NCBI RefSeq assembly: GCF_003012935.1
Contig: NZ_PUDR01000023.1
Span: 1-44,585 of the forward strand
Source: Pannonibacter carbonis
GTDB taxonomy: Bacteria > Pseudomonadota > Alphaproteobacteria > Rhizobiales > Stappiaceae
Direction: 5' to 3'
Length of the DNA: 44,585 nucleotides
Every line of letters begins with the position of its first letter. Position 1 is the stretch's first letter. The position numbers and the translations under genes were made by a program. Below are positions 4,385 through 23,256 of this stretch, in pieces. The notes below the pieces were generated by a model. That model saw nothing but the letters and a program-made list of their open reading frames with translations. It was not told the DNA's origin and searched no databases.

Positions 4385-7143
4385 GTGTCCTTCTTGGTGC
4401 CAGCGGCACCTGCTTTGGCTTTCGGCGTGGTCGCCGTCTTCTTTGCGGTCGTCGTCTTCTTGGCGGCCGCCTTCTTCGGCGCGGCTTCCGCCGCTTCGCC
4501 ATCTGCGGCGTCGGCCTTCGCCTTCACCGCCTTCTTGGTGGCTGCCGCCTTCGGAGCAGCGGTCTTCTTGGCTGCGGCCTTCTTTGCCGGCGCCTTCTTT
4601 GCCGTCGCGCCGCCCTTGGCCTTGATCAGCTCCAGCGCCTGTTCCACGGTCACGGCCATCGGGTCGCTGCCCTTCGGCAGGGTGGCATTCACCTTGCCCC
4701 AGTTGACATAGGCCCCGTAACGGCCATCACGGATGGTGATCGGCCCGCCATCGGGATGATCGCCGAGTTCCTTCAGTGCGGCCGGAGCGGAGCGCCCGCG
4801 TGCGCCCTTGGAGCGTTTTTCCGCCAGAAGATCGACCGCTCGGTTGATCCCGACCGAGAACACCTCATCAGCCGAGGCAAGGTTGGCATAGGTTCCTTCA
4901 TGGACAATGAAGGGACCGAAGCGGCCAATGCCGGCCGAAATCATCTTGCCGTCTTCCGGATGCAGGCCGATCTCGCGCGGCAGCTTCAACAGCTGCAAGG
5001 CCTTGTCCAGCGTCAGGTCCGCGGCTGACCAGCCCTTGGGCAGGGAGGAGCGTTTCGGCTTGGCCTCGCCCTTCACTTCCTCGCCCAGCTGCACATAGGG
5101 GCCAAACCGGCCGGAGCGCAGGGACACTTCCAGCCCGCTGTCCGGATCGGTGCCCAGCACCTTCGGGCCATCGGATGCCGCTTCCCCGTCCTCGCCGTCC
5201 TGGCCCCGGGCGAGCTGGCGGGTGTAGCTGCATTCGGGATAGTTCGAGCAGCCGATGAAGGCCCCGAAACGGCTGACCTTCAGCGACAGCTGGCCGGTCG
5301 AGCAGGTCGGGCACGCGCGTGGATCCTTGCCGTCCTCGCGCACCGGGAAGATATGCGAGGCCAGCAGCTCGTTCAGGGCGTCGATGACCTGCGACACGCG
5401 CAGATCCTTGGTCTCACCCACGGCGGCGGAGAAGTCGCGCCAGAACGCGGCCAGAACATCGCGCCAGGACAGTTCACCGGCCGAGATGCGGTCAAGCTGC
5501 TCTTCCAGGCTCGCGGTGAAGTCGAACTCCACATAGCGCGAGAAGAAGCTTTCGAGGAACGCCGTGACGATGCGGCCCTTGTCCTGCGGCACCAGCTGCT
5601 TCTTGTCGAGTTCCACATACTCGCGGTCGCGCAGGGTCTGCAGCGTCGAGGCGTAGGTCGACGGGCGGCCGATGCCCAGCTCTTCCATCTTCTTGACGAG
5701 GCTGGCTTCGGTGTAGCGCGGCGGCGGCATGGTGAAATGCTGCTCCGCCTCGATCGGGCTCGGCTTGCCTTCAACGGTGCCAAGGCCCAGCGGTGCGCCG
5801 TCGTCAACGGCGGGCAGGCGGTTTGCCGCCTCGTCGTCGTCGTCGTCGCGGCCTTCCTGATAGAGGGCGAGGAAGCCGTCGAACCGGACAACCGAGCCGG
5901 TGGCGCGCAGCGCGGCGGACTTGCCCGCACCGGACGCCGCGATGTCGATGGTCGTGCGCTCCAGCACGGCCGATTCCATCTGGCTCGCCATGGTGCGCTT
6001 CCAGATCAGCTCATAGAGCCGGGCCTGGTCGGGATCGAGGAAGCGGGCCACATCGCGCGGGCGGCGGAACAGGTCGGTCGGGCGCACGGCTTCGTGCGCT
6101 TCCTGGGCGTTCTTGGCCTTGGAGGAATAGAAGCGCGGCTTTTCGGGCACATAGTTGTCGCCGAAGTCGCTGGCGATCACCTTGCGGGCGGCGGAAATCG
6201 CCTCACCGGCGATCTGCACGCCGTCGGTTCGCATATAGGTGATGAGACCGGTGGTCTCGCCGCCAAGGGTGATGCCTTCATAGAGCTTCTGCGCCACCTG
6301 CATGGTGCGGGCGGCGGCAAAGCCGAGCTTGCGCGAGGCTTCCTGCTGCAGCGTCGAGGTGGTGAAGGGCGGCTGCGGGTTGCGCTTGGCCGGCTTGGAG
6401 ACGACGCTCTCCACCCGGTAGCTGGCGCTTTCCAGCATGCGCTTGATCGTCAGCGCCTGGTCTTCGGTCTTGATGTCGAGACGCGTCAGCTTCTTGCCCT
6501 CGAAGCCGACTACTGAGGCCTGCAGCGCTTCGCCCTTCGGGGTCTTCAGGTTGGCGAGGATCGACCAGTACTCTTCCTTGACGAAGGTCTCGATCTCCAT
6601 CTCGCGGTCGCAGATGAGGCGCAGCGCCACGGACTGCACGCGGCCGGCCGAGCGGGCGCCGGGCAGCTTGCGCCACAGCACCGGCGACAGGGTGAAGCCG
6701 ACGAGATAGTCGAGCGCACGGCGGGCGAGATAGGCATCGACCAGCGGCGTGTCGATCGGACGCGGGTTCTTCATCGCCTCCAGGATCGACTGCTTGGTGA
6801 TCGCGTTGAACACAACGCGCTCGACCGGCATGTCCTTGAGGACCTTCTTCTTCTGCAGCACTTCCAGAACGTGCCACGAAATCGCTTCCCCTTCGCGATC
6901 CGGGTCAGTTGCGAGAATCAGTCTGTCGGCGCCTTTGACGGCGGCGGCGATCTCGTTCAGGCGCTTCTGCGACTTTGCGTCGACCTCCCAGGTCATCGCG
7001 AAGTCCTCGTCGGGCAGCACCGAGCCATCCTTGGCCGGCAGGTCGCGCACGTGGCCGTAGGAGGCGAGGACGTGATAGTCGGAGCCCAGATACTTGTTGA
7101 TCGTCTTGGCCTTGGCCGGCGATTCCACGATGACGATATTCAT
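4381..7143 (-). CDS. topA: DNA topoisomerase I
   Basis: A 920-residue type IA topoisomerase that relaxes negatively supercoiled DNA. It begins MNIVIVESPAKAKTINKYLG, the Toprim nucleotide-binding start, which is why 7143 was preferred to a longer frame. The active-site tyrosine lies in GLITYMRTDG. A four-cysteine zinc-ribbon (CPTC...GCSNYPEC) follows the core. After it come repeated C-terminal modules containing RFGPYV or RFGPFI. The protein ends in a long lysine/alanine/threonine-rich tail (last ~90 residues, KKAPAKKAAAKK type), likely a DNA-binding extension common in this class. It is transcribed with rnr downstream. Confidence 0.96.
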   Translation of the reverse strand: MNIVIVESPAKAKTINKYLGSDYHVLASYGHVRDLPAKDGSVLPDEDFAMTWEVDAKSQKRLNEIAAAVKGADRLILATDPDREGEAISWHVLEVLQKKKVLKDMPVERVVFNAITKQSILEAMKNPRPIDTPLVDAYLARRALDYLVGFTLSPVLWRKLPGARSAGRVQSVALRLICDREMEIETFVKEEYWSILANLKTPKGEALQASVVGFEGKKLTRLDIKTEDQALTIKRMLESASYRVESVVSKPAKRNPQPPFTTSTLQQEASRKLGFAAARTMQVAQKLYEGITLGGETTGLITYMRTDGVQIAGEAISAARKVIASDFGDNYVPEKPRFYSSKAKNAQEAHEAVRPTDLFRRPRDVARFLDPDQARLYELIWKRTMASQMESAVLERTTIDIAASGAGKSAALRATGSVVRFDGFLALYQEGRDDDDDEAANRLPAVDDGAPLGLGTVEGKPSPIEAEQHFTMPPPRYTEASLVKKMEELGIGRPSTYASTLQTLRDREYVELDKKQLVPQDKGRIVTAFLESFFSRYVEFDFTASLEEQLDRISAGELSWRDVLAAFWRDFSAAVGETKDLRVSQVIDALNELLASHIFPVREDGKDPRACPTCSTGQLSLKVSRFGAFIGCSNYPECSYTRQLARGQDGEDGEAASDGPKVLGTDPDSGLEVSLRSGRFGPYVQLGEEVKGEAKPKRSSLPKGWSAADLTLDKALQLLKLPREIGLHPEDGKMISAGIGRFGPFIVHEGTYANLASADEVFSVGINRAVDLLAEKRSKGARGRSAPAALKELGDHPDGGPITIRDGRYGAYVNWGKVNATLPKGSDPMAVTVEQALELIKAKGGATAKKAPAKKAAAKKTAAPKAAATKKAVKAKADAADGEAAEAAPKKAAAKKTTTAKKTATTPKAKAGAAGTKKDT

Positions 7144-15539: not shown

Positions 15540-16634
15540 ATGGCAAATAACCGGGGCGCGTCGGTCCGCTACGAGAATGTCCAGAAAAGCTATGACGGAG
15601 AAACGCTGGTCGTAAAGAACCTCAATCTCGACATTCCCCCCGGTGAATTCCTCACCATGCTGGGGCCGTCGGGGTCGGGCAAGACCACCTGCCTGATGAT
15701 GCTGGCCGGGTTCGAGCCGGCCACCCATGGCGAGATCTTTCTCAACAACCGGCCGATCAACAAGGTGCCGCCGCACAAGCGCGGCATCGGCATGGTGTTC
15801 CAGAACTACGCCCTGTTTCCGCACATGACGGTCGCCGAAAACCTCGCCTTTCCGCTGCAGGTGCGCGGCATGAGCAAGGCCGACCAGGCGGAAAAGGTGA
15901 AGCGGGCGCTGGAAATGGTCGAGCTGGGCAAGCTCGGCAACCGCCGTCCGGCCCAGCTCTCCGGCGGGCAGCAGCAGCGTGTCGCCGTTGCCCGTGCGCT
16001 GGTGTTCGATCCGGAGCTGGTGCTGATGGACGAGCCGCTCGGCGCACTGGACAAGCAGCTGCGCGAGCAGATGCAGTACGAGATCAAGCACATTCACGAA
16101 AATCTCGGCGTCACGGTGGTCTATGTCACCCATGACCAGACCGAGGCCCTGACCATGTCGGACCGGGTCGCCGTGTTCAATGATGGCGTGATCCAGCAGC
16201 TGTCGACACCGGATCTCCTCTACGAGGAGCCGCAGAATTCCTTTGTTGCCCAGTTCATAGGCGAAAACAACAAGCTGAGCGGTCAGGTGGTCTCGGTCGA
16301 CAACGACGCCTGCGAGGTGCTCGTGGCCGGCGGGGTCCGTCTGAAGGCGGACAAGGTCAATGTGTCGGGCGCCGGCGATGCGACCACCCTGTCGCTCCGG
16401 CCCGAGCGGGTTGAACTCGCGCCTGAACGGCAGATGGACAACATGCTCGAGGGCCGCATCGAGGAACTGATCTATCTCGGCGACCATATCCGCGTGCGCA
16501 TGACGGTCTGCGGCAACAGCGAGTTCATCGTCAAGGTCCGCAACCGTTCGGACCGCCGCCGCCTGGACGCCGGCGAGATTGTTCCCATCGGTTGGGAAAT
16601 GAAGGATTGCAAGGCACTGGATGCCGTTGCGTAA
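15540..16634 (+). CDS. PotA-like ABC transporter ATPase
   Basis: A 364-residue importer ATPase. It shows Walker A GPSGSGKT (42-49), the Q-loop in MVFQNYALFP, signature LSGGQQQRVA, Walker B LVLMDEP with the D-loop GALD, and the switch histidine in YVTHDQTEA. A C-terminal TOBE-type regulatory domain covers about 260-364. It is most like the spermidine/putrescine (PotA) group. The start MANNRG was chosen because GGGGAA precedes it at proper spacing and the upstream 22 residues look non-coding. It leads an operon with a binding protein and two permeases, then creatinase, so a guanidino or other cationic amine substrate is plausible. Confidence 0.93.
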   Translation: MANNRGASVRYENVQKSYDGETLVVKNLNLDIPPGEFLTMLGPSGSGKTTCLMMLAGFEPATHGEIFLNNRPINKVPPHKRGIGMVFQNYALFPHMTVAENLAFPLQVRGMSKADQAEKVKRALEMVELGKLGNRRPAQLSGGQQQRVAVARALVFDPELVLMDEPLGALDKQLREQMQYEIKHIHENLGVTVVYVTHDQTEALTMSDRVAVFNDGVIQQLSTPDLLYEEPQNSFVAQFIGENNKLSGQVVSVDNDACEVLVAGGVRLKADKVNVSGAGDATTLSLRPERVELAPERQMDNMLEGRIEELIYLGDHIRVRMTVCGNSEFIVKVRNRSDRRRLDAGEIVPIGWEMKDCKALDAVA

Positions 16635-16716
16635 TGGAATGCGTGACCGGGGGCGGCAAGATCCCCGGCGCGACGACATGACCGGTCCCGGTCCAACGCT
16701 CGAAAGGGGAGCAGAT

Positions 16717-17817
16717 ATGAAACTGGCAACCACACTCCTGGCCACGGCAGCGCTGTCGCTGACGTCGATCTCGGTGCAGGCCGCAGACCTGACCATCGTG
16801 TCCTGGGGCGGCGCCTACTCGGCCTCGCAGAACAACGCCTACCACAAGCCGTTCATGGCGATGAAGTCAGGCGTCAACATCATCAATGACGAATCCTCCA
16901 ACGAGGCCGTCGCCAAGCTGCGCGCGATGAACGAGGCCGGCAACGTCACCTGGGACATCGTCGACGTTGAAGGCCCGGACAGCCAGCGCCTGTGCGATGA
17001 GGGCCTGGCGATGGAAATCGATCCGGCCGAATGGCTGGCCAAGGCGCCCGATGGCACCGAAGCCTATGTCGATTTCGGCCCGTCGATGATCAACAAGTGT
17101 TTCATCCCTCAGATCGTCTTCTCCACCACGTTCGGCTACCGCACCGATGTCAAGGAGTGGAACGGCGCCGTGCCCACCAGCCTCTGCGATATCTTCGATA
17201 CGGCCAAGTTCCCGGGCAAGCGCAGCCTGGAAAAGCGCCCGAAGAAGAACATCGAATGGGCGCTCCTGTGCGATGGCGTTGCCAAGGACGATCTCTACAA
17301 GGTGATGTCGAAGCCGGAAGGCATCCAGCAGGCGCTGGCCAAGCTCGACACCATCAAGAAGGACGTGATCTGGTGGTCGGCCGGCGCTGAAACCCCGCAG
17401 CGTCTGGCCGACGGCGAAGCCGTCATCGGCTCGACCTACAACGGCCGCCTGTTCTCCGTCATCGAGGAGCAGAAGCAGCCGGTCGCCATGCTTTGGGACT
17501 GGCAGGTGTTTGACTTCGACGGCTGGATCATCCCGGCTGGCGTGAAGGAAGACAAGCTGCCCCTGATCAAGGAATACATCCAGTTCGCCACCGACACGCA
17601 GCGTCTTGCTGACCAGGCCAAGTATATTTCCTACGGCCCGGCCCGTGCATCCTCGCAGCCGCTCGTCGGCAAGCATGCGGACCTCGGCATCGACATGGCG
17701 CCGCACATGCCGACCAACCCGGCCAACCAGAAGAACTATCTGGTGAACAACATCGAGTGGTGGGCGGACAACCAGGACGAGGTCGAAGCGGCCTTCCAGG
17801 TCTGGCTCGCCAAGTAA
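16717..17817 (+). CDS. PotD-like periplasmic binding protein
   Basis: A 366-residue solute-binding protein of the spermidine/putrescine (PotD/PotF) class. A signal peptide covers residues 1-21 (MKLATTLLATAALSLTSISV), with cleavage expected at AQA-ADLT or nearby. The mature protein begins with the usual strand-and-loop SWGGAYS. The start at 16717 is preceded by AAGGGGAG. Aromatic residues suited to binding an amine are present (for example WWSAG and WWADN), but the ligand is not fixed by sequence. Its position in one operon with creatinase suggests creatine or a related compound. A GC-rich hairpin follows the stop. Confidence 0.9.
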   Translation: MKLATTLLATAALSLTSISVQAADLTIVSWGGAYSASQNNAYHKPFMAMKSGVNIINDESSNEAVAKLRAMNEAGNVTWDIVDVEGPDSQRLCDEGLAMEIDPAEWLAKAPDGTEAYVDFGPSMINKCFIPQIVFSTTFGYRTDVKEWNGAVPTSLCDIFDTAKFPGKRSLEKRPKKNIEWALLCDGVAKDDLYKVMSKPEGIQQALAKLDTIKKDVIWWSAGAETPQRLADGEAVIGSTYNGRLFSVIEEQKQPVAMLWDWQVFDFDGWIIPAGVKEDKLPLIKEYIQFATDTQRLADQAKYISYGPARASSQPLVGKHADLGIDMAPHMPTNPANQKNYLVNNIEWWADNQDEVEAAFQVWLAK

Positions 17818-17877: not shown

Positions 17878-19146
17878 ATGACCCAGCTTGATATGCCTGC
17901 GCAGGCCCCTGTGCTGACACAGGACGGCCGGCCGCTCAAGGCGAGCCTTTCCCGTGCCTTGCGCCGGGAGAAACTGCGCGCCTTTGTCCTGATCCTGCCG
18001 CTGCTCGCCTTCGTGCTGCTGACCTTCGCGGCACCGATCGTCGACATGCTGTTGCGCTCGGTCGACAATTCGATTGTGCCTCAGACCTTGCCGCGGACGG
18101 TGGTCGCGCTCGAACTGTGGGATCCCCAGACCGATGAACTGCCGGAGGAGCCGGCCTACGCGGCCCTGGTCGAAGACCTGCGCGAGGCGGTGGCGCAGAA
18201 GATGCACACCCGGCTTGGATCGCGCCTCAACTACGAACAGTCCGGTTTCTCAAGCCTGATGCGCAAGTCCGGCCGTGCGGTGGAAACCATCTCGGGGAGT
18301 GACGTCAAGGGCCAGCTTATTGCCGCTGATAGTGCCTGGGCCGACCCGCAGATCTGGCGCACCCTGAAGCTTTACTCCGGAACGACCACCAAAGGGTACT
18401 TCCTTTCCGCCCTGGATGCCCGCCAGACCCTGGATGGGGTGGAAATGCTCCCCGAGGGTGAACGCATCTATCTGATGCTGTTCGGCCGCACGCTGATGAT
18501 GAGCCTGACGATCACGCTGCTTTGCGCGTTGATCGGCTATCCGGTCGCCTTCCTTCTGGCGCAGCTGCCGATGCGCACGTCGAACATGCTGATGATCCTG
18601 GTGCTGTTGCCGTTCTGGACCAGCCTCCTGGTGCGCACGTCGGCCTGGAAGGTCCTGTTGCAACAGCAAGGTGTCATCAACGACATGCTGGTCTGGATCG
18701 GCCTGATCAGTGACGGCAACCGCCTTGTGATGATGAACAATGCCACCGGCACGATCATCGCCATGACGCATATCCTGCTGCCCTTCATGATCCTGCCGCT
18801 TTATTCCGTGATGAAGACCATCTCGCCGTCCTACATGCGCGCGGCGCGCTCGCTCGGCGCCAATGACTGGACGGCCTTCTGGCGGATCTACTTCCCCCAG
18901 TCGGTGCCCGGCATAGGGGCAGGGGCGGTGCTCGTCTTCATCCTGGCCATCGGCTACTACATCACGCCGGAGCTGGTCGGCGGCACGTCTGGCATCTTCA
19001 TCTCCAACCGCATCGCCTATCACATCTCCAGTTCGCTCAACTGGGGTCTGGCGGCGGCGCTGGGCGCCCTGCTGCTGATCGCGGTGCTCGTCCTCTTCTA
19101 TGTCTACGACAAGGTCGTCGGCATCGATAACGTCAAGCTTGGATAG
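17878..19146 (+). CDS. PotB-like ABC permease with enlarged periplasmic loop
   Basis: A 422-residue inner-membrane permease. The first membrane segment is about 35-60 (AFVLILPLLAFVLLTFAAPI). It is followed by an unusually long hydrophilic stretch (about 65-195) and then five more segments from about 200 on. The EAA-type loop that contacts the ATPase is MRAARSLGANDWTAFWRIYF. PotB proteins are usually under 320 residues, and the excess lies in the first periplasmic loop. Long-loop versions are known among alphaproteobacterial importers, so this may be a subfamily trait. The second permease begins 10 nt downstream. Confidence 0.9.
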   Translation: MTQLDMPAQAPVLTQDGRPLKASLSRALRREKLRAFVLILPLLAFVLLTFAAPIVDMLLRSVDNSIVPQTLPRTVVALELWDPQTDELPEEPAYAALVEDLREAVAQKMHTRLGSRLNYEQSGFSSLMRKSGRAVETISGSDVKGQLIAADSAWADPQIWRTLKLYSGTTTKGYFLSALDARQTLDGVEMLPEGERIYLMLFGRTLMMSLTITLLCALIGYPVAFLLAQLPMRTSNMLMILVLLPFWTSLLVRTSAWKVLLQQQGVINDMLVWIGLISDGNRLVMMNNATGTIIAMTHILLPFMILPLYSVMKTISPSYMRAARSLGANDWTAFWRIYFPQSVPGIGAGAVLVFILAIGYYITPELVGGTSGIFISNRIAYHISSSLNWGLAAALGALLLIAVLVLFYVYDKVVGIDNVKLG

Positions 19147-19156
19147 GAGCGCGCCG

Positions 19157-20011
19157 ATGTCTTCCTTGCCCTCCTATGCCTCGCCGCTGCAACGCACCTG
19201 GCACTACACGTTCCGGATCATCTGCGGGCTGATCTTCTTCTTCCTGGTGTTCCCGATCCTGGTGATCATCCCGCTGTCGTTCAACGCCCAGGACTTCTTC
19301 ACCTTCACGCCTGAAATGCTGGCGCTGGATCCGGCCGGCTATTCGACCAAGCATTATGTGGACTTCTTCACCAATCCGGACTGGCAGAAGGCCCTCAAAA
19401 ACTCCTTCATGATCGCGCCGACGGCGACCCTGCTGGCCACGGTTCTTGGCACGCTTGCGGCCATCGGCCTGTCACAGCCGCATGTGCCGTTCCGCTCGGT
19501 GATCATGGCCATCCTGATCTCGCCGATGATCGTGCCGCTGATCATCGCGGCGGCGGGCATGTATTTCTTCTATTCCCGCATCGGCCTGCAGGGCACCTAC
19601 TGGGGCGTCGTCATGGCCCATGCGGTGCTCGGCACGCCTTTCGTCATCATCACCGTCACGGCAACGCTGGTCGGCTTCGACAACAGTCTGGTGCGGGCGG
19701 CGGCCAGCATGGGCGCCGGGCCGATCACCACCTTCTTCAAGGTGCAGATGCCGCTGATCCTGCCGGGTGTCGTCTCCGGCGCGCTGTTTGCCTTCATCAC
19801 CTCCTTCGATGAGGTGGTCGTGGTCCTGTTCCTGGGCTCTGCCAGTCAGAAGACGCTGCCCTGGCAGATGTTCATCGGCCTGCGCGAGCAGATATCCCCG
19901 ACGATCCTGGCGGTCGCCTCGATCATGGTGGTGCTCTCAGTCGTGCTCTTGACCGTGCTGGAGCTGCTGCGCCGGCGTTCGGAGCGTCTGCGCGGCGTGA
20001 CGCCGGCCTGA
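19157..20011 (+). CDS. PotC-like ABC permease
   Basis: A 284-residue inner-membrane permease of the PotC group with six hydrophobic segments, beginning around 20-42 (ICGLIFFFLVFPILVIIPLSF). The EAA loop is VRAAASMGAGPITTFFKVQMPLILPG. It pairs with the preceding long-loop permease to form the channel. The start at 19157 follows TAGGAG, which contains the stop of the upstream gene. A longer in-frame start overlapping the previous gene was rejected. About 210 nt separate its stop from a strong terminator that precedes creatinase. Confidence 0.92.
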   Translation: MSSLPSYASPLQRTWHYTFRIICGLIFFFLVFPILVIIPLSFNAQDFFTFTPEMLALDPAGYSTKHYVDFFTNPDWQKALKNSFMIAPTATLLATVLGTLAAIGLSQPHVPFRSVIMAILISPMIVPLIIAAAGMYFFYSRIGLQGTYWGVVMAHAVLGTPFVIITVTATLVGFDNSLVRAAASMGAGPITTFFKVQMPLILPGVVSGALFAFITSFDEVVVVLFLGSASQKTLPWQMFIGLREQISPTILAVASIMVVLSVVLLTVLELLRRRSERLRGVTPA

Positions 20012-20134
20012 GACGGATCCTGCAACTTCCCGTTCCCTCCGCTCCGGCGGAGAAAACCGGTGATGCGTTTTGCCTGGGGGTGACCCGGGCTAGAGTTCGA
20101 ATGACATAGCGATACGGACTTGTTCCCAGAAGGA

Positions 20135-20256
20135 CCCGGGGCGGTACGCCAGTTCCGGGCCGGATACCAGGCGCTCCGCCTGACGCCGGACAAGACCAAT
20201 CGCACCGATATCGGGCCTGGCGGGCCGGCTTCCTTGACTGGAAGCCGGCCCGTTTT
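20135..20256 (+). ncRNA. Candidate structured leader or small RNA before creatinase
   Basis: Three stem-loops follow each other between the importer operon and creatinase. The first is 20135-20159, outer CCCGG/CCGGG and inner GGCG-GTA-CGCC. The second is 20168-20182, CAGGCG-CTC-CGCCTG, extended by flanking CCGG pairs. The third is the terminator stem 20221-20252. The last hairpin lies 50 nt before the creatinase start, so this may be a 5' leader with a conditional terminator, or a small RNA ending at it. I could not match it to a known class (guanidine-I consensus is absent). No function is demonstrated. Confidence 0.4.
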
Positions 20257-20260
20257 TCGT
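20221..20260 (+). terminator. Strong rho-independent terminator
   Basis: A perfect 13-bp stem (CGGGCCGGCTTCC, 20221-20233, with its complement at 20240-20252) and a 6-nt loop are followed by TTTTTCGTTTT. It ends either the importer transcript or a separate leader/small RNA. It stands just 50 nt before the creatinase ATG. Confidence 0.9.
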
Positions 20261-20308
20261 TTTGGCCGGCTGGGAATAGGCCCACCAGCGCACTCAAGGG
20301 GAAGTATT

Positions 20309-21535
20309 ATGCATCACGATGACATGCCGCGACTGCAAGTGCTTGAAAATGGTGAGAAAAGCTGGTCGCCCTTTTCTGCAGGCGAGCTTCAGGGCCGGCA
20401 GGACCGTCTGCGGCGGCGGATGGAGGAGTTGAAGCTCGATGCCTGCGTTTTTACCAGCTACCACAACATCTGCTACTTCTCCGGCTTCCTCTACTGCTCC
20501 TTCGGCAGCCGCTACGGCTTTGTCGTCGATGAGCACCGCGCGACGGTGATCGCTGCCGGTATCGACGGGGGGCAGCCCTGGCGGCGCGTGCTGGGGGATG
20601 CGCTCACCTACACCGACTGGAACAAGGACAATTACTTCCACGCCCTGCAGGCGGCGCTGTTTTCCTCGGGCCGCAAGCCGGCGCGCATCGGCATCGAGTT
20701 CGACCACGTGTCCCTCGACCTGATGGCCAAGCTTCAGGCCGCCCTGCCGGGGGTGGAACTGGTCGATGTCAGCGATGCCGTCATGCGCATGCGCACCATC
20801 AAGAGCCTTGAGGAACAGGCGCTGATCCGCGAGGGCACGCGCATCTGCGATATCGGCGGCGCGGCGGTGGCCGGGGCTGTGCGGGCAGGGGTTCCCGAGC
20901 ATGAGGTGGCGCTTGCCGGCACGCAGGCCATGGTCCGGGCGATCGCCGCATCCTTCCCGTTCGTCGAACTGATGGACACCTGGGTCTGGTTCCAGTCCGG
21001 CATCAACACGGATGGCGCCCACAATCCGGTGACCAACCGCGTGGTTCAGGCCGGCGACATTCTCAGCCTCAACTGCTTCCCGATGATCTTCGGCTACTAC
21101 ACGGCACTGGAGCGGACGCTGTTCTGCAATCACGTCTCCGACGCGCATCTGCGGCTGTGGGAGATCAATTGCGAGGTTCATCGCGCCGGACTGGAACTGA
21201 TCCGGCCGGGGGCGCGCTGCTGCGACATTGCCGCCACGCTCAACGACATCTACCGCCGCCATGACCTGCTGCAATACCGCAGCTTCGGCTACGGCCACTC
21301 CTTCGGCGTACTCAGCCACTATTACGGCCGCGAGGCGGCGGTGGAATTGCGCGAGGATGTGGAAACGGTACTGGAGCCCGGCATGGTCGTATCCATGGAA
21401 CCGATGATCATGATCCCGGAAGGCCTGTCCGGGGCAGGCGGTTACCGCGAACACGACATTCTGATCCTCACCGACACCGGAGCGGAAAACATCACCGGCT
21501 TTCCCTTCGGCCCCGAGCACAACATCGTCGGCTAG
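20309..21535 (+). CDS. Creatinase (creatine amidinohydrolase)
   Basis: A 408-residue M24-fold enzyme predicted to hydrolyse creatine to sarcosine and urea. It matches remembered Pseudomonas creatinase segment by segment: FTSYHNICYFSGFLYCSFG, IDGGQPWRR, VYTDW-like YTDWNKDNYF, ELMDTWVWFQSGINTDGAHNP, LSLNCFPMI, YRSFGYGHSFGVLSHYYGRE, VSMEPMIMIPEGLSGAGGYREHD. The family has the pita-bread fold without bound metal, using a histidine in the GYGHSFG region. Length agrees with about 403 residues. AAGGGGAAG precedes the chosen ATG. No sarcosine oxidase, creatininase or urease is in this window, so later steps must lie elsewhere. Confidence 0.92.
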   Translation: MHHDDMPRLQVLENGEKSWSPFSAGELQGRQDRLRRRMEELKLDACVFTSYHNICYFSGFLYCSFGSRYGFVVDEHRATVIAAGIDGGQPWRRVLGDALTYTDWNKDNYFHALQAALFSSGRKPARIGIEFDHVSLDLMAKLQAALPGVELVDVSDAVMRMRTIKSLEEQALIREGTRICDIGGAAVAGAVRAGVPEHEVALAGTQAMVRAIAASFPFVELMDTWVWFQSGINTDGAHNPVTNRVVQAGDILSLNCFPMIFGYYTALERTLFCNHVSDAHLRLWEINCEVHRAGLELIRPGARCCDIAATLNDIYRRHDLLQYRSFGYGHSFGVLSHYYGREAAVELREDVETVLEPGMVVSMEPMIMIPEGLSGAGGYREHDILILTDTGAENITGFPFGPEHNIVG

Positions 21536-21859: not shown

Positions 21860-21928
21860 ATGACAGACACAGCAGGCCGACGGGACGGGACCGTAGCCAT
21901 TCACCAGCAGGGGAGGGCATTCGCATGA
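21860..21928 (+). CDS. Putative 22-residue leader peptide upstream of sqr
   Basis: A short frame, MTDTAGRRDGTVAIHQQGRA plus FA, begins 7 nt after an excellent GAGGAGG. It ends in an ATGA overlap with the sqr start codon. The ribosome binding site is stronger than that of sqr itself, so the frame is probably translated and couples ribosomes into sqr. It resembles no protein I know. It could be only a coupling device, or a misassigned start in a divergent sqr N terminus. Confidence 0.45.
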   Translation: MTDTAGRRDGTVAIHQQGRAFA

Positions 21929-23256
21929 CCCGTCAAACGGACAAGCTTGCCCTTGATCGGCGCAACTTCCTGAAGGTGTTCATGGCCGCCGGCGGTGCCG
22001 GCGCGCTGGGATCACTGGCAAGCCAGGCCCGGGCCTCGGCCGTTCAGACCAAGGCCCGGATCGTCATCCTTGGCGCTGGCGCGGCAGGGACAGCTCTCGC
22101 CAATCGTCTTGTTGACCGGCTGAGCGGCGCCAGCATCACCATCGTCGATGGCCGCAAGCAGCATCTCTACCAGCCGGGCTTCACGCTCATTGCCGCCGGC
22201 CTGAAGCCGGCGTCCTATTCCGTCACCTCGACGACCGACTGGCTGCCCTCCGGCGTCACGCTGGTCGAGGAGGCGGCCGCCAACATCGATCCGGTGTCCC
22301 GCAAGGTGACGACCGCCTCCGGCAAGGAACTGGAGTATGACTTCCTCATCCTCGCCACCGGTCTGACGCTTGACTATGGCCAGATCGAAGGCATGTCGAT
22401 GGATCTCATCGGCAAGAACGGCATCGGCTCGGTCTATGCCGGACCTGACTATGCCGCCATGACCTATGCCGAGATGAGCCGTTTCACCGAGAAGGGCGGC
22501 GTCGGCCTGTTCTCGCGTCCGGCAACGGAAATGAAATGCGCCGGCGCGCCGCTCAAATATGCGTTCCTGACTGACGACATTGCCCGGCGCAAGGGCAACC
22601 GTGGCAAGCTCGAGATGGTCTATGCCGCGCACAATAAGGCGCTGTTCTCTGTCCCCATCGTCAACGAGAAGCTTCGCATGCTGTTCGAGGACCGGGGCAT
22701 CGAGGTGCGCCGCGAGCATGTCATGAGTGCCATCGACCCGGGCAAGAAGATCGCCACCTTCCAGACGCCGGACGGCCCCAAGGAGATCGGCTACGACTTT
22801 ACCAACATCATCCCGCCGATGCGTGCGCCGGATGTGGTGCTGAATAGCCCGCTGCCGTGGCAGGACGGGCCCTGGGTGAAGCAAGGTTGGGCGGAAGTGG
22901 ACAAGCACACGCTTCGGCATGTCCGGTTCCCCGAGGTCTTCGCCGTCGGTGACATCGCCGGCGTGCCGAAGGGCAAGACGGCGGCCAGCGTCAAGTGGCA
23001 GGTGCCGGTGGTCGAGGATCATCTCGTCGCCGCACTGTCGGGCAAGGAGGGGACAGCCAGCTTCGATGGCTACACGTCCTGCCCGATGATCACCCGGATC
23101 GGCCGGGCGATGCTGATCGAGTTCGACTACAAGGACAATCTCGTGCCGTCCTTCCCCGGTGTGATCGCGCCGCTGGAGGAACTCTGGGTGTCCTGGTTGA
23201 TGAAGGAAGTGGCGCTGAAGGCCACCTATAACGCCATGCTGCGCGGCCGCGCCTGA
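21925..23256 (+). CDS. sqr: Sulfide:quinone oxidoreductase, type II, with Tat signal
   Basis: A 443-residue flavoprotein. FAD binding is marked by ILGAGAAGTALA (about 48-59) and VGDIAGVPKGKTAA (341-354). Only two cysteines exist: Cys205 in KCAGAP and Cys386 in DGYTSCPM. Both motifs match the type II (human SQOR-like) group, which oxidises sulfide and passes electrons to quinone. The C-terminal region (about 400-443) suits peripheral membrane contact. Unusually, the N terminus has a twin-arginine signal (DRRNFLKVFMAAGGAGALG, residues 11-29), predicting export of the folded flavoprotein. The ATG has GGGGAGGG upstream and overlaps a short upstream frame. Confidence 0.88.
   Translation: MTRQTDKLALDRRNFLKVFMAAGGAGALGSLASQARASAVQTKARIVILGAGAAGTALANRLVDRLSGASITIVDGRKQHLYQPGFTLIAAGLKPASYSVTSTTDWLPSGVTLVEEAAANIDPVSRKVTTASGKELEYDFLILATGLTLDYGQIEGMSMDLIGKNGIGSVYAGPDYAAMTYAEMSRFTEKGGVGLFSRPATEMKCAGAPLKYAFLTDDIARRKGNRGKLEMVYAAHNKALFSVPIVNEKLRMLFEDRGIEVRREHVMSAIDPGKKIATFQTPDGPKEIGYDFTNIIPPMRAPDVVLNSPLPWQDGPWVKQGWAEVDKHTLRHVRFPEVFAVGDIAGVPKGKTAASVKWQVPVVEDHLVAALSGKEGTASFDGYTSCPMITRIGRAMLIEFDYKDNLVPSFPGVIAPLEELWVSWLMKEVALKATYNAMLRGRA

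Follow-up and report, generated by a model that had tools for sequence, protein, structure and literature searches.

What is a strong intrinsic terminator doing in the gap between the last gene of an ABC importer operon and the start of a creatinase gene? The question is raised by a stretch of 44,585 nucleotides from the alphaproteobacterium Pannonibacter carbonis (NCBI RefSeq assembly GCF_003012935.1, contig NZ_PUDR01000023.1), which is called here, in its entirety, the window and to which all positions refer unless another record is named. Reading the letters alone, the original prediction proposed that the gap contains either a conditional terminator (a riboswitch or attenuator) or an independent small RNA. 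The gap holds a larger conserved folded RNA (window 20109-20257), of which the terminator is the final element.

Genes around the leader

The genes concerned all lie on the + strand, in the order potA, substrate-binding protein, permB, permC, and creatinase. The importer ATPase (15540-16634) belongs to the PotA family (NCBIfam potA, TIGR01187, above cut-off), and the substrate-binding protein (16711-17817) is putatively of the polyamine/opine type (phmmer matches 8jv1, 4eq7, and 6hly; Pfam SBP_bac_8); for both, we chose the start codon within the open reading frame. Two permease genes with Pfam BPD_transp_1 domains follow, permB (17878-19146) and permC (19100-20011). The latter, whose best NCBIfam match is PotC at a score below that model's cut-off, is the last gene of this Pot-type ABC importer operon. 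Binders of polyamines and opine-type compounds are the closest solved structures to the binding protein, which may bring in the compound to which the leader answers.

The gene that we presume to be regulated (20309-21535; Pfam Creatinase_N and Peptidase_M24) is predicted to encode creatinase (creatine amidinohydrolase) by its full-length similarity to solved creatinases (phmmer E-values of 2.8e-194 for 7yto, 1.3e-177 for 1chm, and 4.3e-171 for 1kp0); the next-best structure is a proline dipeptidase (1e-21). Its product is 99% identical to the creatinase of Pannonibacter sp. SL95. Further downstream, the gene at 21922-23256 resembles a type III sulfide:quinone oxidoreductase (a match to NF049943 below cut-off) and is not obviously connected with the use of creatine.

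Anatomy of the leader RNA

In the RNA, which is likewise encoded on the + strand, a closing stem and three hairpins form a four-way junction, and a linker and the intrinsic terminator follow. The closing stem P0 is formed by a 5' strand at 20109-20123 (GCGAT, GG, and CTTGT) and a 3' strand at 20190-20203 (ACAAG, CC, and ATCGC), both assigned by folding and pair counts. Within it lie hairpin Pa (20124-20134; TCC...GGA), known from the fold; hairpin Pb (20135-20159), which has a conserved tip GG-HACG-CC (H being A, T, or C) and a bulged A and in the window reads CCCGGGGC-GG-TACG-CC-A-GTTCCGGG; and hairpin Pc (20160-20189), again from the fold, which varies in sequence and length. Pc has a lower stem (20160-20163/20186-20189) and an upper stem (20168-20173/20177-20182; CAGGCG/CGCCTG) and is not present in the two shorter Pannonibacter elements (L074 and L075). 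The terminator (20221-20257) has a perfect 13-bp stem (20221-20233/20240-20252, beginning with the pair C20221-G20252), a loop at 20234-20239, and the T-tract TTTTT at 20253-20257; its stem ends 56 nt before the creatinase ATG at 20309. Two GC hairpins (20135-20159 and 20168-20182) and the perfect 13-bp terminator had been pointed out in the original prediction; all three are present, the hairpins being recovered by folding, and to them are added P0, the small hairpin at 20124-20134, and the lower stem of Pc, which that prediction had missed.

Folded as a single sequence, the leader (20090-20262) reaches -84.9 kcal/mol (z -5.3), and none of 200 shuffled sequences was as low. To a good part, this value is due to the terminator: without it (20100-20218), z is -2.4 and two of 200 shuffles were as low, so that single-sequence folding is only moderately unusual. 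A terminator scan of 11 kb returned five sites, fewer than in shuffled DNA (mean 7.3), and the site in the leader has the most pairs among them (15; the next has 11). Conservation is stronger evidence for the leader RNA than single-sequence folding.

Conservation and covariation

Intergenic stretches were collected from creatinase loci with a detected upstream permC, leaving out one with a 3.8-kb gap (L143), which gave 58 unique stretches. Before alignment, we dropped five stretches without the terminator motif (L139, L141, L147, L149, and L151) and two without the core of Pb (L083 and L086), and three alignments were prepared: A1 (49 distinct elements), A2 (47, with L074 and L075 left out), and A3 (32 typical elements, 31 of them distinct). 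The common fold was read from single-sequence folds in the case of P0, Pa, and Pc, and pairs were then counted on the same sequences; from the raw alignment, RNAalifold returned no helix other than Pb and the terminator.

In A3, which was aligned with MAFFT, 96.2% of the cells pair. Two-sided changes occur in 15 of the 36 pairs against a mean of 6.0 in shuffled alignments, none of 500 shuffles reaching 15, and if the partner column is slid by one to three positions, at most nine pairs have such changes. Alignment of related creatinase leaders, a check put forward in the original prediction, thus reveals covarying stems. A larger set of 53 model-fitted elements (50 distinct), in which the alignment itself leans towards the structure, has two-sided changes in 20 of 36 pairs (13.5 when shuffled; no more than 10 when slid). 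By helix, these changes fall on 5/5 pairs of P0 (counted on the equivalent 5-bp core in relatives), 3/3 of Pa, 3/10 of Pb, 6/6 of Pc, and 3/12 of the terminator. Three of the ten Pb pairs never vary, and each of the 12 modelled terminator pairs is kept in at least 48 of the 50 distinct rows.

Parts of the RNA are nearly constant in sequence. Among the model hits, the Pb core GG.ACGCCAG is found in 51 of 53 elements and GGCCTGGCGGGCC, which precedes and enters the terminator, in all 53; the model behind these counts was itself built on selected rows, and the invariance of both motifs within A1-A3 is partly a product of row selection. Mean identity between loci, taken over 400 random pairs (383 for permC) drawn from the 51 unique loci in which both motifs occur (L083 and L086 being left out), is 89% in Pb and 88% in the pre-terminator and terminator, compared with 82% in permC and 76% in creatinase as neighbouring coding DNA, 59% in the linker, 61% in the post-terminator stretch, and 45% in a shuffled baseline. 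To judge from these identities, conservation of Pb and of the pre-terminator/terminator above that of the genes would fit a binding or switching core.

Distribution and linkage to creatinase

Among 87 genomes of the window's family, the covariance model matches in 52 at E <= 8.1e-6, at one place each, and in all 52 the RNA sits between permC and creatinase. Creatinase itself is found at E <= 1e-100 in 52 of the 87, and RNA and creatinase occur together in 51. Relaxing the model threshold to E <= 0.01 raises the count to 53 through a single genome (G072; 0.0027) that has no creatinase at E <= 1e-100. Weak model places elsewhere in the family number four (G072, G077, G081, and G033; 0.0016 to 0.0056), and the family search also gave matches of the same terminators on the opposite strand. 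A DNA search with the leader likewise reports 53 of the 87 genomes at E <= 0.01, at least two of which (G026 and G075) have short DNA matches with neither a model match nor creatinase. One genome (G023) has a more distant creatinase (63% identical) without the RNA, and in another (G066) the RNA and the start of creatinase lie near a contig end.

The arrangement between permC and the RNA can change. In L092, a reading frame of 147 aa lies between them, and in L095, permC is followed by a terminator-like hairpin of 14 bp whose end lies about 100 nt upstream of the RNA; in both, the RNA remains beside creatinase.

Outside the family, the RNA becomes rare. In 397 genomes of the order, strong matches (E <= 8.1e-6) occur in 10, every one belonging to the window's family. 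Weaker matches (7.8e-5 to 0.0086) came from nine genomes of other families in the order, and neither the Pb core nor GGCCTGGCGGGCC is present in any of the nine loci fetched. The same is true of all four other matches (1.8e-4 to 8.1e-4) in 385 genomes of the class. We take these weak matches in other families as terminator or chance hits. A search of 398 genomes of the phylum with a sequence pattern gave no match except the window, and among 63 creatinase loci beside the window, which included other alphaproteobacteria and Acidimicrobiales, the model matches at E <= 1e-5 were L081, L094, L099, L108, L083, and L086. Across the order, class, phylum, and creatinase-locus searches, the RNA was thus seen only in the window's family and in one Rhizobium sp. 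record, and no other gene context of the RNA was found in the genomes searched. That record (L081; Rhizobium sp. L1K21) carries the RNA at its positions 5841-5971 together with the whole operon, which suggests that importer, RNA, and creatinase were transferred as one unit.

Position of the terminator relative to creatinase

In the 53 unique loci (52 family genomes and L081), 33-100 nt separate the end of the terminator stem from the likely creatinase start, taken as an in-frame start codon with a loose Shine-Dalgarno-like match. The distance is at most 41 nt in 12 loci and at least 43 nt in the other 41; measured to the most downstream in-frame start candidate, it is 38-53 nt in the same 12 loci. 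A promoter and an untranslated leader would hardly fit into such short distances unless they overlapped the terminator, so, judged from this spacing, creatinase is probably read through it. This arrangement, in which a gene is accompanied by a terminator in its leader, is the anatomy of an attenuator. On the upstream side, the Pb core begins 34 nt or more after the permC stop (median 51), near enough that importer transcripts probably often include the RNA. No sigma-70-like hexamer pair (the only promoter type sought; at least 8/12 matches, spacer of 16-18 nt) was found in window 19961-20330.

These distances bear on the simplest explanation, that the element is an ordinary importer-operon terminator with a passive, stable 3' structure and that creatinase is expressed from its own downstream promoter or by leaky read-through. 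A strong terminator after an operon is what this explanation expects, and the spacing in the window (56 nt to the ATG) and in the 41 loci with at least 43 nt agrees with it. It leaves little room for a promoter in the remaining 12 loci, however, and a covarying four-way junction with near-invariant unpaired bases exceeds what it calls for; moreover, L095 already has a terminator-like hairpin after permC, upstream of the RNA. In L092, with its intervening frame, the RNA likewise stays with creatinase. The terminator is probably not merely the end of the importer operon, as the original prediction had argued from its closeness to creatinase, and we rate the ordinary-terminator explanation as very unlikely.

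Somewhat less improbable, but still distinctly unlikely, is a small RNA, derived from a 3'-UTR or transcribed from its own promoter, with its 3' end at the terminator and its function elsewhere; that it lies before creatinase would then be incidental. Compatible with such a molecule are the compact fold, the strong terminator, and the single strong match in each genome. Yet the linkage to creatinase holds also where permC is set apart (L092 and L095), and in the 12 short-distance loci creatinase would still need to be transcribed through the terminator. In most loci, the Pb core follows the permC stop so soon that little promoter room is left, and the absence of a sigma-70-like hexamer pair from window 19961-20330 points the same way.

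A probable conditional terminator of creatinase

We consider it reasonably probable, from comparative sequence analysis, that the leader is a cis-acting conditional terminator (a riboswitch-like attenuator) of creatinase. A conserved and covarying domain is found in the leader of a metabolic gene, and the terminator lies in the transcript path of the gene presumed to be regulated, as judged from the distances to its start. Between the two possibilities raised in the original prediction, covariation, linkage to creatinase, and the 12 of 53 short distances favour the conditional terminator and make the independent small RNA the less likely one.

We infer the pseudoknot, the ligand, and the direction of switching as follows. 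By default, the terminator would form, and transcription arriving from the importer operon, or initiated at a promoter close by, would stop before creatinase. On binding its signal, the junction-and-Pb domain would let CGCCAG at the Pb tip pair with CTGGCG in an H-type pseudoknot; this would remove the two terminator pairs next to the T-tract, and polymerase would read on into creatinase. The importer would thereby be made first, and creatinase would be added once substrate arrives. As the signal, the substrate creatine or a guanidino compound close to it is the most likely, a proposal that derives from the RNA accompanying this one gene. Both creatine and the ON direction are further suggested by the consideration that the best cue for making a degradative enzyme would be the arrival of its imported substrate. 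General signals such as urea or glycine are made less likely by the single strong match in each genome, found only at creatinase.

The same anatomy would serve a terminator switched by a protein, i.e. an RNA-binding antiterminator or a nitrogen regulator acting at the four-way junction or the Pb tip, and the conserved tip of Pb, with its bulged A, could be a protein site. Protein-dependent antiterminators often act on several transcripts per genome; the single strong match per genome is an argument, if a weak one, against such a factor here, and we regard this explanation as unlikely, less so than the small RNA. Returning to the riboswitch-like attenuator, it is conceivable, though on the doubtful side, that the RNA is the first member of a creatine- (or guanidinoacetate-) sensing riboswitch class, in which a four-way-junction aptamer and a pseudoknot between Pb tip and terminator foot would turn creatinase on after creatine import.

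The original prediction had also suggested looking for a strand alternative to the terminator, and one 6-bp candidate was found. Its 5' strand, CGCCAG (20147-20152, + strand), comprises the tip and 3' side of Pb; its 3' strand, CTGGCG (20217-20222, + strand), shares its last two bases with the first two of the terminator stem. By shuffling, complementarity of this kind has a chance of ~3%, and the duplex is worth -9.2 kcal/mol. With the 2-bp tip of Pb opened, the pairing would form an H-type pseudoknot that has CGGHA (5 nt) as its first loop and takes up the two lowest terminator pairs. Opening the tip costs about 6.6 kcal/mol (in the Roseibium-type Pb, from -14.9 to -8.3), pseudoknot penalty excluded. 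The terminator is worth -30.2 kcal/mol and is still stable, at -24.5 kcal/mol, without its two lowest pairs, so that their loss may not suffice. Both strands are invariant where present, for which reason covariation cannot test the pseudoknot.

In two of the 53 elements, L083 (Stappia sediminis) and L086 (Hongsoonwoonella zoysiae), the pre-terminator and terminator are kept and the Pb core is absent; the CGCCAG strand is consequently missing and CTGGCG is retained, which implies either another reason for CTGGCG or decayed copies. The intergenic regions of these two loci constitute a natural test case for the role of the Pb core.

A further stem, formed around the terminator by GGGCCTG before it and a CAGGCCC-like sequence after 20257, does better than simple shuffling in 25 of the 53 loci (p <= 0.05). 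We did not adopt this outer stem into the structure because about half of the loci lack it; it might form after read-through.

Relationship to known regulatory RNAs

At the gathering threshold, the 4227 models of Rfam 15 give no match in the window or in 10 related loci. When E-values up to 10 are admitted, the window leader has a best E of 0.12, far below threshold, and the Roseibium element one of 0.012 (20.6 of the 75 bits required, on the other strand). None of the guanidine riboswitch families of Rfam appears in the scans of the window, the window leader, the 10 related loci, or the Roseibium element. The covariance-model search that the original prediction had recommended therefore returns no family at threshold, and its remark that no consensus of the guanidine-I class is visible is borne out. 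In the full-text literature, preprints and most subscription journals being outside the scope of the search, we found no description of this RNA or of a creatine riboswitch, and, judged from titles and listings, no riboswitch tied to creatinase, creatininase, or Roseibium. The leader RNA looks like a previously undescribed structural variant of a riboswitch-like attenuator.

In transcription-terminating riboswitches and attenuators, a metabolic gene is preceded by a conserved, covarying leader and then an intrinsic terminator. The creatinase RNA has the same layout and a candidate mutually exclusive pairing; it differs in that its structured domain matches no Rfam family and its ligand is putative. 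The loop consensus of the guanidine-II riboswitch (mini-ykkC) is ACGR. Like that riboswitch, the creatinase RNA has a short hairpin with ACG in the loop, and the enzyme encoded downstream of it acts on a guanidino compound; unlike it, the creatinase RNA has one such hairpin, with the loop HACG, set within a four-way junction, and Rfam lists no match to guanidine-II at E up to 10. The H-type arrangement proposed for CGCCAG:CTGGCG, with its conserved first loop, resembles that of guanidine-III and of SAM-V (PMC6061858), from which it differs in that the candidate pseudoknot is embedded in a four-way junction and has no Rfam match. The HMP-PP (thiS motif) riboswitch is a rare class with a terminator-embedded aptamer (PMC6478431); the comparison with the creatinase RNA concerns this feature, the gene being different and the creatinase RNA having no Rfam match.

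Should creatine prove to be what the leader senses, these bacteria would possess a natural RNA sensor of a metabolite with clinical importance, and the leader would reveal how they time their use of it. The RNA is small, the single gene that it precedes has an assignable enzyme activity, and the list of candidate ligands is short. Even without a ligand, it is a well-supported structured leader RNA unmatched by Rfam 15.

A different leader occurs in the five records set aside for want of the terminator motif (three of Hoeflea, one of Oricola, and one alphaproteobacterial record), in which permC is again followed by creatinase. By scan, this leader contains no terminator, and where scanned it has no Rfam match, the E-value scan of the Hoeflea leader giving sub-threshold hits only. 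Its conserved sequence, GGTTTCACTTCCCGGC...GCAATAGGGT..., begins some 91-94 nt upstream of the creatinase start and stands directly before the ATG; the leader possibly represents a second, unrelated leader control of creatinase.
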